This document shows, piece by piece, positions 33,263 to 64,000 of a DNA stretch of 64,000 nucleotides. The notes below the pieces were generated by a model. The model made no database searches, was not told the origin of the DNA, and saw only the letters and a list, made by a program, of their open reading frames with translations. Source of the stretch: Adlercreutzia sp. ZJ141 (GTDB taxonomy: Bacteria; Actinomycetota; Coriobacteriia; Coriobacteriales; Eggerthellaceae); the NCBI RefSeq assembly GCF_011038965.1, contig NZ_JAAKEB010000001.1, positions 186,001-250,000 on the forward strand, given 5' to 3'. The position numbers and the translations under genes were made by a program. Each line of letters begins with the position of its first letter. Position 1 is the stretch's first letter.

Positions 33263-33925
33263 ATGCCAAGGCATGTCGATACGGTACTCAATACTGTGTC
33301 AAACAAGGTTCTGACGGTACCGAATGTTATTTCGGCCATCAGACTATGCCTGATCCCTGTGTTTTTTGCAGTGCTGCTGAGTGGGCATGACGTTGCAGCG
33401 GCTATTATCTTTGCTATCGCGGCGGGCACTGACTGTATTGACGGTCAGATCGCTCGGCGTACAAATGCGGTAACGCGCCTAGGCCAGTTGCTTGACCCCG
33501 CGGTCGACCGTTTGCTCATGATCTCCGGAGTACTCGGAGTTTTTTTGGTTGGTCGCTTGCCGCTGTGGATCATTCTCTTCGTGCTGGTGCGCGATCTCTT
33601 CTTACTGGTGGGAAGTTTCTATCTGTTGCGGAGCCGTCATATTCGCATCCCTGTGGTTTTCGCGGGTAAAGCATCAACCACGTTTCTGTTCATCGGGTTT
33701 GCTGGCTTGCTGCTGAATGCTCCGCTTATCTCTGGGTTGGGCTGGGTTTCTTTCGATTGGCTACCAGGGTTTAACGCCGATCCCTGCTCGTGGTCGATCT
33801 GGTTTCTGTATGTTGGGCTGGTACTCAGCGCCGTGACGGCGGTGTACTACGCGTACTCAGCGCTACGCGAACTGCGAGAACACCCTTCTGCTGCACGCAT
33901 GCAACGGGAGTTGGGACATGAGTGA
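33263..33925 (+). CDS. CDP-alcohol phosphatidyltransferase family protein
   Basis: Membrane enzyme of 220 residues with six segments. The full CDP-alcohol motif is present as D-x2-DG-x2-AR-x8-G-x3-D-x3-D in TDCIDGQIARR...GQLLDPAVD. It transfers a phosphatidyl group from CDP-diacylglycerol to an alcohol. Candidates are glycerol-3-phosphate, inositol-phosphate or phosphatidylglycerol (actinobacterial cardiolipin synthase). A second, more typical PgsA lies at 61963-63225, so this copy may have the cardiolipin role; the sequence does not settle it. Its 3' end overlaps the VanW gene by 8 bases. Confidence 0.85.
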   Translation: MPRHVDTVLNTVSNKVLTVPNVISAIRLCLIPVFFAVLLSGHDVAAAIIFAIAAGTDCIDGQIARRTNAVTRLGQLLDPAVDRLLMISGVLGVFLVGRLPLWIILFVLVRDLFLLVGSFYLLRSRHIRIPVVFAGKASTTFLFIGFAGLLLNAPLISGLGWVSFDWLPGFNADPCSWSIWFLYVGLVLSAVTAVYYAYSALRELREHPSAARMQRELGHE

Positions 33926-59625: not shown

Positions 59626-60456
59626 ATGAAAAAGCAGACCGTAGCCACGTTTCGCGCGGCGAAGCAGGCAGGCACCAAGCTGGCCATGCTTACTGCGTAC
59701 GACTATTCAACCGCAAAATTGGTTGATGAGGCAGGTATTGAAGGCATTTTGGTGGGTGATTCGCTGGGCATGACCATGCTCGGATACGATGACACGCTGC
59801 CCGTAACCATGGACGACATGGTGCATCACACGCGCGCAGTTACGCGCGGTGCCGAGCATGCGCTCGTGGTTGCCGACATGCCGTTCATGTCGTACCATCT
59901 TTCACCCGCTCAAGCGGTGGAAAATGCTGGGCGACTGGTGAAGGAAGGCGGCGCGCAGGCGGTTAAGATTGAAGGAGGCGCACAGTTCGCATCCGAGATA
60001 CAGGCCATCACTCGCGCATCAATTCCCGTGATGGGGCATTTGGGTCTCACACCACAATCTATCAATGCGTTTGGCGGCTTTAAGGTACAGGGTAAGACCA
60101 CGCAGGCTGCACAGCGTCTGGTTGACGACGCCCGCGCAATCGAAGCGGCGGGTGCGTTTTCTATCGTACTCGAGTGTATTCCATCTGAACTTGCGGCTAT
60201 TATCACAGAAGCAGTGGATGTTCCAACTATCGGCATTGGTTCGGGTGCGGGATGCGATGGGCAAATTCTGGTGTATCAGGACATGTTGGGTATGTACGGA
60301 AACATGGCACCGAAATTTGTTCGTCGGTTTGCCGAAGTGGGCGACATGATGAAAACGGCGTTTGCCGACTACCGTACTGCCGTGCAGGATGGGAGCTTTC
60401 CTGCCCCCGAGCATACGTTCGCCGCGCCTTCGGGCACGTTCGACGGCGTGAACTAG
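59626..60456 (+). CDS. panB: 3-methyl-2-oxobutanoate hydroxymethyltransferase
   Basis: The 276-residue enzyme uses methylene-tetrahydrofolate to turn 2-ketoisovalerate into ketopantoate. Motifs are [46 protein letters not shown] and the C-terminal [28 protein letters not shown] precedes the ATG. Its substrate comes from the IlvBN-IlvC-IlvD route at 8.7-14 kb. It is the first gene of panB-panC-panD. Confidence 0.96.
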
Positions 60457-60559
60457 CTGTTCATTACCCAAACCGCTGAAGAGACGCAATTAACAACGAG
60501 CAATACGGGTGCGGACGGGTTCAGCCAAGACTGCATCCGTACATAGAAAAGGATCATTC

Positions 60560-61414
60560 ATGACGCAGATCATCACCACTATAAGCGAAATGCGTGCGCA
60601 GGTGCGCGCTTGGAGAAGCGCTGGCGAATGTGTTGGCCTTGTTCCCACCATGGGCTACCTGCACGAAGGGCATAAAAGCCTCATTGAACGCTCTGTTGCT
60701 GACAACGATCGCACGGTGGTGAGCGTGTTTGTAAATCCCACGCAGTTTGGTCCGAACGAAGACCTCGAAAGCTACCCGCGTGACCTCGACCGCGATGTTG
60801 CGCTCGTTGCGCATGCCGGTGCCGATGTGGTGTTTCATCCCGAACCTGAAGAGATGTACTTCCCTGACCGCTCCACCACCGTACACGTGGAGGGCTTGGG
60901 AAACGAGCTTTGTGGTAAGAGCCGCCCGATTCATTTCGACGGCGTGTGCTTGGTGGTAAGTAAACTCTTAAACATCACCACGCCCGTTCGTGCGTATTTC
61001 GGACAGAAGGACGCCCAACAGCTGCTTATCGTGCGGCGCATGGTGCGCGATTTGAGCATCGGTACAGACATCGTGGGCTGCCCCATTGTGCGCGAAGCTG
61101 ATGGGTTGGCGAAAAGCTCGCGCAACACGTATCTTTCGCCTGCTGAGCGGGCTGCGGCCGTTGTGTTATCCCGTTCGCTTGCGTGTGGCCGCGCGGTAGT
61201 TGAATCTGGCGAGCGTAGTGCTGAGGCCGTGCGTGCGGCCATACGCGCCGAACTGGCAACCGAACCGCTTGCCGAACCTGAATACGTCGAAGTTGTTGAC
61301 ACGAATACGGTAAGTCCCGTCGACGTTATAGCTGGTGAAGTGCTGGTGGCTATTGCGGTACGCATCGGCACCACGCGCCTGATCGACAATTTCTTCTTCG
61401 ATCCAGACGCATAG
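60560..61414 (+). CDS. panC: Pantothenate synthetase
   Basis: The 284-residue ligase joins pantoate and beta-alanine with ATP. It shows VPTMGYLHEGHKSLIERS with the HxGH signature, VSVFVNPTQFGPNEDLESYP, FGQKDAQQLLIVRRMV and the KMSKS-like GLAKSSRNTYLS. The ATG at 60560 has AAAAGGA upstream. It lies 103 bases after panB. Confidence 0.95.
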   Translation: MTQIITTISEMRAQVRAWRSAGECVGLVPTMGYLHEGHKSLIERSVADNDRTVVSVFVNPTQFGPNEDLESYPRDLDRDVALVAHAGADVVFHPEPEEMYFPDRSTTVHVEGLGNELCGKSRPIHFDGVCLVVSKLLNITTPVRAYFGQKDAQQLLIVRRMVRDLSIGTDIVGCPIVREADGLAKSSRNTYLSPAERAAAVVLSRSLACGRAVVESGERSAEAVRAAIRAELATEPLAEPEYVEVVDTNTVSPVDVIAGEVLVAIAVRIGTTRLIDNFFFDPDA

Positions 61415-61525
61415 GCGTTGTCTATCACCTTTGATTGAGATACCGCTTGGTTTATAAACCAGTAACACGTACGTAAGCCCATAGGTGTTTAGAGAACGTT
61501 CGAGAAAGGACCATAAAACCCCATC

Positions 61526-61909
61526 ATGCAGCTGACTATGTTGAAGGGAAAGATCCACCGCGCCATCATACAACAAGCCGACGTGGACTACGTCGGATCT
61601 ATCACTGTTGACCCGGTACTGCTTGATGCGGCTGGCATTCTCGAGTACGAGCGTGTGCAGGTGGTCGATGTGAGTAATGGCGCACGCTTCGAAACCTACA
61701 CCATCGCTGGCGAAGCAGGAAGTGGCATGGTGTGCGTGAATGGCGCTGCGGCGCATCTGGTTACGCCGGGAGACCTTTGTATCATCATGTGCTACTGCCA
61801 AATGACACCTGTTGAGGCACGCGAACATCGCCCACGCGTGGTGTTCGTTGACGATAAGAACGCCATTGCCAAAGTTGCGCGCTACGAGCGTCACGGCGAA
61901 ATTCACTGA
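61526..61909 (+). CDS. panD: Aspartate 1-decarboxylase precursor
   Basis: The 127-residue pyruvoyl enzyme supplies beta-alanine for PanC. Self-cleavage occurs between Gly24 and Ser25 (DYVGSITVD). The core motifs [10 protein letters not shown] and [22 protein letters not shown] are intact. GAAAGGA lies upstream. It ends the pan operon; panE is not present here. The 111 bases between panC and panD contain a 14-bp palindrome (61448-61461). Confidence 0.95.
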
Positions 61910-61929: not shown

Positions 61930-61963
61930 ATAACGTGACGAAGTGTGATTCTCGTCACGTTAT
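61930..61963. terminator. Bidirectional terminator between panD and pgsA-cinA
   Basis: A perfect 12-bp stem (ATAACGTGACGA / TCGTCACGTTAT, 10-base loop) lies between convergent genes and touches the stop codon of the minus-strand gene. A TACTTTT tract follows on the plus strand. Confidence 0.75.
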
Positions 61964-63225
61964 TACTTTTCGGTAACCTCGCTTGCAAGCGTCTCTAATG
62001 CGGCGCGCACTGTCAATCGTCGCACCTGACTGCGATCGCCTGGTACGAACAGCCGCATCGCTTGTGCTTCGTGTGCATTGGCCCAACCAATCCATACGGT
62101 TCCCACTGGCTTGCTCGGCTCCGCTCCTGTAGGTCCGGCAATTCCTGTTACCGACACCGCAACGTCGCAGCCAAGTGCTTGACGAGCGCCGCGAGCCATA
62201 TCAAGCGCCACTTGTTTGCTTACTGCCCCATCGTCGGCGAGTGTGCGGGAACCGACATGCAGCGCCGCATACTTCACTTCGTTCATATAACTGGCAATGC
62301 CACCACGAACCACCGTTGAGCTGCCGGGCACTGCTGTCAACGCCGCACAGATTCCACCGCCTGTCAGGCTTTCGGCTGTGCCTATGGTCACACCGCGCTT
62401 GGCGGCTGCGGTAATCACGCTGCTCGCCGTTTCAACCAAGGCGCGGTCTTGCGCCAACGCAAGCTCAGCTTCGGTCGCCGCGCGTGTATACGTTTCATCT
62501 TCGGCGCGCGTCGCATCGAGGTTTTGCGCTAGTAGTTCGATTAACGATTCGGACACAGGCTGCGCTGCTGTGTCCGGGTCTGCTGTGGCTCGCTTGCCCG
62601 ACGGCGCAAAGCCCAGCAGTTGCTTCGCCTTCACAAAGTAATCGAGCATGCTCACAATGGTCAGCACTAACGCTACGATCATTACAAGCCAGGCAATAAT
62701 ATAAAGCGGGTTTTGGAGTGGATTGTCGCCGCTTTCAAAAGGTACGCCGTCCATCAAGATAAACAACACAATCGCCACCATCTGGGTGACCGTTTTTGCC
62801 TTTCCATACCAGCTTGCGGCAATCACCGTACCTTGATTCGCCGCGATCATGCGGATACCCGACACGATAAACTCACGCGACATGATGATCAGTGTCACCC
62901 ATGCAGGCAGTACGCCCAGCTCGGTGAGCGACAACAACGCTGCTAGCACGAGTATCTTATCGGCGAGCGGGTCCATAAACTTACCGAAGTTGGTCACTTC
63001 GCCGCGACTGCGGGCTAAATATCCGTCGAGTGCATCGGTAGCTGCGATCAGCACAAACACCGCCGCCGCAACCCAGGGCTTCCACACTTCGCCGCCATCA
63101 AGAAAGGGGAACCAATCGAACCAGGGAGCCAAAAACACTACTACAAACACCGGCACGAAGCAGATGCGCGTAAGCGTCACGATGTTCGCCGGCGTCCAGA
63201 GCCGTTCTTGTGGTTCCTGAGCCAT
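61963..63225 (-). CDS. pgsA-cinA: Fused phosphatidylglycerophosphate synthase / CinA-type nicotinamide-nucleotide amidase
   Basis: One 420-residue reading frame holds two enzymes. Residues 1-~208 are PgsA, a membrane CDP-alcohol phosphotransferase. Its motif TDALDGYLARSRG...GKFMDPLADK spans D64-D88, and SREFIVSG follows near 116. Residues ~262-418 are the CinA C-terminal (PncC) domain with TAESLTGGGICAAL, GGIASYMNEVKYAAL and SVTGIAGPTGAEP. A charged ~50-residue linker joins them. The genes are often adjacent (rimO-pgsA-cinA) but separate. rimO's stop is 2 bases upstream. The fusion would tether the amidase to the membrane. Confidence 0.9.
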   Translation of the reverse strand: MAQEPQERLWTPANIVTLTRICFVPVFVVVFLAPWFDWFPFLDGGEVWKPWVAAAVFVLIAATDALDGYLARSRGEVTNFGKFMDPLADKILVLAALLSLTELGVLPAWVTLIIMSREFIVSGIRMIAANQGTVIAASWYGKAKTVTQMVAIVLFILMDGVPFESGDNPLQNPLYIIAWLVMIVALVLTIVSMLDYFVKAKQLLGFAPSGKRATADPDTAAQPVSESLIELLAQNLDATRAEDETYTRAATEAELALAQDRALVETASSVITAAAKRGVTIGTAESLTGGGICAALTAVPGSSTVVRGGIASYMNEVKYAALHVGSRTLADDGAVSKQVALDMARGARQALGCDVAVSVTGIAGPTGAEPSKPVGTVWIGWANAHEAQAMRLFVPGDRSQVRRLTVRAALETLASEVTEK

Positions 63226-63227
63226 GT

Positions 63228-64000
63228 TTATTCACCTTCCATTTCGTACAGCAGCGTATCGGTGATGGTAACCCGCCGCACGTCGCCGACGTTTCCTTCG
63301 CTCACATACACCACACCGTCGACCTCGGGTGCTTGGCACATGGCACGCCCGAACAGTTGGCCATCCTCTTCAATACCTTCGATCAGCACGTCAAAGGTAC
63401 GCCCAATGCGTGCAGCAATAATCTGGGAGCACACACTGTCGGCAATGTCGCGCACACGTTGGGCACGATCGCGCTTCTCATCTTCATCAATTTGGTCAGC
63501 CAGCGCCGCCGCACGCGTTCCTTCTTCGCGCGAGTACGGGAATACACCCACGTAATCGAAGTAGCCTTCCTCCACAAACGAGCACAAATCCTCGAACTGC
63601 TCATCGGTTTCACCGGGAAATCCGGCAATGAGTGTGGTCCGCAGCACCACATCGGGAAGCATGCAGCGAATCCTATCAACCAACTGCACGAACTCGTGTC
63701 TGTTACCGTGGCGATTCATCGCCTGCAGCAAGTTTTCATCAACGTGTTGCAAGGGAATATCAAGGTAGTTACAGATGTTATCGTGCTTTGCGAATACATG
63801 GAGCAGCTCGTCGGTTATTCCTTCGGGTTGCAGGTACATCACCCGAAACCACATGTGGGCGAACTCATCAGCGAGGCGATCCATCAAACTTGCGAGCGTA
63901 TCGTCGGAACCTAAGTCGGAGCCCCATCGCCCAGTATCCTGCGCGATAAGCACAATCTCTCGTGCGCCGGCAGCTATGCTACGCGACACCTCTTGGCGGA
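63228..64000 (-). CDS. rimO: Ribosomal protein S12 methylthiotransferase, 3' part (partial)
   Basis: The C-terminal ~257 residues of a radical SAM methylthiotransferase are seen; the reading frame runs off the window edge. Conserved parts are EIVLIAQDTGRWGSDL, YLDIPLQHVDENLLQAMNR, TTLIAGFPGETDEQFEDL and a TRAM-like end (about the last 65 residues). LIAQDT and the order with pgsA favour RimO over MiaB, which has its own gene at 49133. RimO modifies Asp of protein S12. The N-terminal cluster domain and radical SAM cysteines lie outside the window. Confidence 0.92.
   Translation of the reverse strand, partial: RQEVSRSIAAGAREIVLIAQDTGRWGSDLGSDDTLASLMDRLADEFAHMWFRVMYLQPEGITDELLHVFAKHDNICNYLDIPLQHVDENLLQAMNRHGNRHEFVQLVDRIRCMLPDVVLRTTLIAGFPGETDEQFEDLCSFVEEGYFDYVGVFPYSREEGTRAAALADQIDEDEKRDRAQRVRDIADSVCSQIIAARIGRTFDVLIEGIEEDGQLFGRAMCQAPEVDGVVYVSEGNVGDVRRVTITDTLLYEMEGE

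Follow-up and report, generated by a model that had tools for sequence, protein, structure and literature searches.

PncC, the C-terminal domain of CinA, lies on a pathway from NMN to NAD, as described in two papers (PMC3680494, PMC9033802). Now and then a CinA domain is found joined to a different domain; such cases were set aside in PMC3855486, and a fusion with COG1058 is discussed in PMC3680494. Active-site residues have been described for OiPncC of Oceanobacillus (E, S, T, G, S, Y, K, S/T, G and R), and inactive CinA lineages are without several of the active-site blocks (PMC3855486).

At the locus analysed here, a PncC domain is preceded in one frame by PgsA, a membrane-lipid enzyme. No description of a PgsA-CinA fusion was found in the open PMC literature, although the combination may be visible in domain databases, and no description of a link between NAD recycling and phospholipid synthesis was found in the literature searched.

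A single frame with two enzyme domains

The fusion gene occupies positions 61963-63225 of the minus strand of the window, that is, of the whole 64,000-nucleotide stretch of DNA that was analysed. It runs for 420 codons (420 aa) from an ATG at 63225 to a stop codon at 61963-61965; direct reading of the frame revealed no internal stops, and the sequence AAGGTGA upstream of the ATG. Immediately upstream, across a gap of 2 nt, lies the part of rimO that falls within the window (3' part, 63228-63998, minus strand), and the two genes probably share a transcript. Beside the fusion gene on the plus strand, three adjacent genes, apparently for pantothenate synthesis, were observed (59626-61909), the last of which is panD (TIGR00223, above cut-off), and the first two of which, judging by sequence, look like panB and panC. 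A perfect 10-bp inverted repeat, AACGTGACGA / TCGTCACGTT (61934-61963, read directly from the sequence), is located between the fusion gene and the convergent panD, and is possibly their shared terminator; it is absent from the output of the consensus terminator scan.

The N-terminal half of the protein (residues 1-204; 62614-63225, minus strand) contains six predicted transmembrane helices and matches the PgsA model TIGR00560 with 158.8 bits against a curated cut-off of 109.1, with the Pfam domain CDP-OH_P_transf covering residues 11-190. The CDP-alcohol phosphatidyltransferase motif DxxDGxxARx8GxxxDxxxD is complete (residues 64-89), and its positions D64, D67, G68, A71, R72, G81, D85 and D89 are all invariant in the alignment of 64 fused proteins. 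Foldseek matched this half to 7drj_A (TMt 0.83, 34% identity in the structural match), and the helices of the model, spanning residues 12-200, reproduce the six-helix membrane fold of 7drj. The N-terminal half is most readily interpreted as the PgsA of this genome, a predicted phosphatidylglycerophosphate synthase, and PgsA is expected to catalyse the committed step to phosphatidylglycerol.

At 33263-33925 on the plus strand lies another gene for a CDP-alcohol phosphatidyltransferase, directly followed by an 808-aa ORF. Its best NCBIfam match is the ClsA-type cardiolipin synthase, with a score below the cut-off (112.6 vs 240), and its score with the PgsA model is likewise below the cut-off (77.1 vs 109.1). 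The product of this gene may share or replace the role of PgsA, so that the fusion protein is not necessarily the sole source of phosphatidylglycerophosphate.

The C-terminal half, from residue 269 (61966-62421, minus strand), is a PncC/CinA C-terminal domain (PF02464, 169 bits; Pfam CinA at residues 266-415), which scores 135.1 bits with TIGR00199, the PncC domain model (cut-off 68.9). The active-site residues of OiPncC correspond to E285, S286, T288, G290, S303, Y313, K318, T360, G361 and R398, all of them present, and N315 is also counted among the PncC-domain residues. The mapped NMN deamidase residues are invariant in the 64 fused proteins, except for T360, whose conservation is 90% or higher, and the protein has every active-site block that the inactive CinA lineages miss. 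Foldseek matches of this half include 5kvk and 2a9s. Models of full-length CinA remain below their cut-offs (TIGR00200, 95.4 vs 243.15; NF001813, 151.3 vs 379) and cover the C-terminal part only, and Pfam detects no MoCF/COG1058 domain (PF00994) in the fusion protein. The initial annotation had proposed an in-frame fusion of a complete PgsA and a complete PncC, and this is confirmed by the curated cut-offs passed, the catalytic residues present and the stop-free frame of 420 aa.

The fusion gene is the only CinA-domain match in the genome. MoCF matches elsewhere in the genome comprise two mutually adjacent frames of 425 and 177 aa, away from PncC, which are expected to be MoeA/MogA-type genes. 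NadE (over cut-off) and NAD-dependent DNA ligase, a source of NMN, are both encoded in the genome; since these occur together with a single CinA-domain gene, NMN released by the ligase can be expected to return to NAD by way of PncC. The C-terminal half would be the only PncC of the genome, a predicted NMN deamidase.

Linker, distribution and evolution of the fusion

Residues 205-268 (62422-62613, minus strand) form the linker, which is disordered at about 201-225 and then predicted to continue as a helix into CinA. A linker of ~50 residues had been suggested initially; a linker is indeed present, but it is slightly longer, with 64 residues separating the domain HMM edges. An AlphaFold model was built with an alignment of the window protein, the fused proteins of the isolates Ellagibacter L032 and Adlercreutzia L033, and separate PgsA and CinA domains. 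In the model (mean pLDDT 89, pTM 0.53) both domains fold well, pLDDT drops to 41-57 at residues 211-230, and a long predicted helix (226-277) enters the CinA domain; because pTM is modest, the model does not define how the two halves are placed relative to each other. In its usual topology PgsA has a cytoplasmic C-terminus. The net positive charge found after the last helix in 46 of the 71 fused proteins weakly backs such a topology, and PncC, following the sixth transmembrane helix, would be situated at the cytoplasmic face of the membrane.

The linkers of relatives vary from 6 to 189 residues, all in frame, and in the fused proteins they have a high content of A, S, G, E, D and P. In close pairs, dN/dS amounts to 0.16-0.93 for the linker, 0-0.18 for PgsA and 0.09-0.25 for CinA, the linker exceeding PgsA in every pair listed and CinA in nearly all. 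These features would fit a translated, loosely constrained tether.

A fusion was called when both domains lay in one open frame at the locus, and loci holding both domains were counted. Whether related genomes hold one long protein or two, a point raised by the initial annotation, is answered by the window's family, in which 48 of the 49 genomes with both domains at the fetched loci carry one long frame. We take this family to be the Eggerthellaceae from its genera Ellagibacter and Adlercreutzia, which contain the best two matches of the named collection (L032 and L033, each isolate with one frame). Apart from G292, whose genome is incomplete and gave a single weak match, all family genomes have a listed PgsA match, and in each of them the open frame is 351 aa or longer. 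The sole family genome with separate genes, G013 (loci L023 and L267), has a TAA after LLGFGTAEDN and an ATG a few bases on; its assembly consists of 310 contigs with 5% contamination, and the separation represents either a re-split or a feature of the draft assembly. A recent, genome-specific fusion was also considered, and rejected because the fusion is family-wide.

The window protein has matches across the whole order. The genes are fused in families f2, f3 and f8, mixed in f5, and separate in f6 and f7; in f10 they are separate in all loci with both domains, and in f4 separate but for two genomes of one genus. The Collinsella/Atopobium-type families have two adjacent genes that are not fused, and the majority of the class's other orders have a full-length MoCF-CinA gene after pgsA, so that some 750-800 nt precede the PncC domain; a short pgsA-PncC gap is found instead in f13, f14 and one f16 of these other orders. 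This arrangement agrees with the earlier statement that the two genes are usually separate neighbours. In another order of the same class, a frame of 1002 codons was observed (L209, genome G344) that combines PgsA, a MoCF-like domain (motif GGLGPTHDD) and PncC. Close to where the MoCF part begins there is a GTG with a Shine-Dalgarno match, so that the frame may yield one protein or more than one. A spread of the fusion through the phylum was rejected: outside the class, in 12 genomes whose PgsA frames are long and in 4 genomes taken for comparison, PgsA lies at or near the end of any long frame that contains it, and CinA, when detected, occupies a different frame. All Bacillota loci with both domains in the named collection are separate.

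On the tree of the two domains, constructed by a quick method and containing many weak branches, the fused or separate state changes at least 11 times, and part of the switching in f5 may be due to draft-genome error. The fusion in G079 and G121 of f4 has a clear separate origin; for the window's family, a single fused clade is compatible with the tree. A plausible path begins with a pgsA-cinA (MoCF-PncC) pair and proceeds through loss of MoCF in the order to repeated loss of the intergenic gap. From the number of state changes it follows that joining is easy; the window's family has nonetheless kept the fusion. The fusion is best read as an old one between two tightly packed genes, with loss of the intergenic stop, suggested previously, as its likely origin.

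Interpretation of the fusion

Taken as a whole explanation, an old, passive PgsA-PncC fusion producing one bifunctional membrane protein is quite probable. The stop and the start between a close-packed pgsA and a short cinA, already without the COG1058/MoCF domain, would have been lost, and the fusion would then have been kept throughout the Eggerthellaceae-type family. The PgsA half would convert CDP-diacylglycerol and glycerol-3-phosphate to phosphatidylglycerophosphate and CMP, and the PncC half, dangling in the cytoplasm by a flexible linker behind the last PgsA helix, would convert NMN to NaMN and NH3, supplying NadD/NadE. Both activities would be largely independent, at a 1:1 ratio presumably fixed by the fused architecture, and the halves would have no substrate coupling. 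The passive fusion is favoured because the reactions share no metabolite, and the length and conservation of the linker give no sign of channelling.

Functional coupling, in which membrane placement or shared PncC-PgsA dimerisation keeps the fusion, seems unlikely. PgsA dimers could, for instance, pre-assemble the PncC dimer, the active site of 2A9S PncC being built from both subunits (PMC3855486), or NAD recycling could be matched to membrane synthesis. The long retention of the fusion in the family despite repeated switching elsewhere, together with at least one clear independent fusion (G079/G121), would suit such a role; however, sister families do well with separate genes, PgsA and PncC have no common substrate or product, and the state changes are frequent, as would be expected for a near-neutral trait. 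Specific coupling, which the initial annotation had entertained, is unsupported because the linker evolves faster than the domains and is weakly constrained, its length not being fixed. A family-wide selected enzyme that recycles NAD at the membrane in step with phospholipid synthesis is somewhat less likely still.

The production of two proteins from the one frame, by internal initiation or by proteolysis of the linker releasing PncC, is rather improbable. An exposed disordered linker could be cleaved, and a few fused genes possess a start codon with a Shine-Dalgarno-like match near CinA; however, the linker encoded in the window lacks ATG codons altogether, and none of its possible start codons has a Shine-Dalgarno match. 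When the 45 residues preceding CinA were searched, an ATG with a Shine-Dalgarno sequence turned up in only 1/71 fused genes vs 39/83 separate genes. This search has limited power, given that a Shine-Dalgarno start for PgsA was found in only 56% of the fused set, but the difference between the two groups is large. The start signal of CinA has been lost in the fused genes. In addition, the scanned region holds no promoter-like site on the minus strand, and an internal promoter was rejected. A single polypeptide is therefore what we would expect in vivo. The check for a hidden stop or start between the domains likewise gave a negative result, neither a concealed stop nor a conserved start within the frame being found, and a sequencing or assembly error concealing both has a negligible probability: small changes suffice for joining, as the TAA and separate ATG of G013 illustrate, but the single frame shared by 48 of the 49 family genomes and by the isolates Ellagibacter L032 and Adlercreutzia L033 excludes both an error and a chance frame.

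Comparison with known enzymes

The PgsA-PncC fusion combines two known enzymes in a new way, without constituting a new kind of system. It means that a housekeeping NAD-salvage enzyme can ride as the tail of a membrane-lipid enzyme across a whole bacterial family, and it offers a natural experiment, with fused and separate sister families and at least 11 switches between them, in which coupling may be distinguished from mere stop-codon loss in a tight operon. It also presents an annotation hazard, as naming only pgsA or only cinA loses half of the protein.

With PgsA (TIGR00560; Staphylococcus aureus PgsA, PDB 7DRJ/7DRK) the fusion shares the full domain, the motif and the fold; ordinary PgsA, however, stops after the last helix (about 180-210 aa), whereas the fusion protein adds ~215 residues. 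The domain, the fold and the listed active-site residues are likewise common to the fusion and to single-domain PncC (E. coli YgaD, A. tumefaciens 2A9S), which is a free soluble domain, while in the fusion a membrane enzyme precedes PncC at the N-terminal side. The two-domain CinA proteins (COG1058/MoCF-PncC; Thermus thermophilus CinA 4CT8, M. tuberculosis CinA) resemble the fusion in the C-terminal position of PncC and in their length of ~420 aa, but their N-terminal partner is the COG1058 pyrophosphatase, whereas the partner in the fusion is PgsA.
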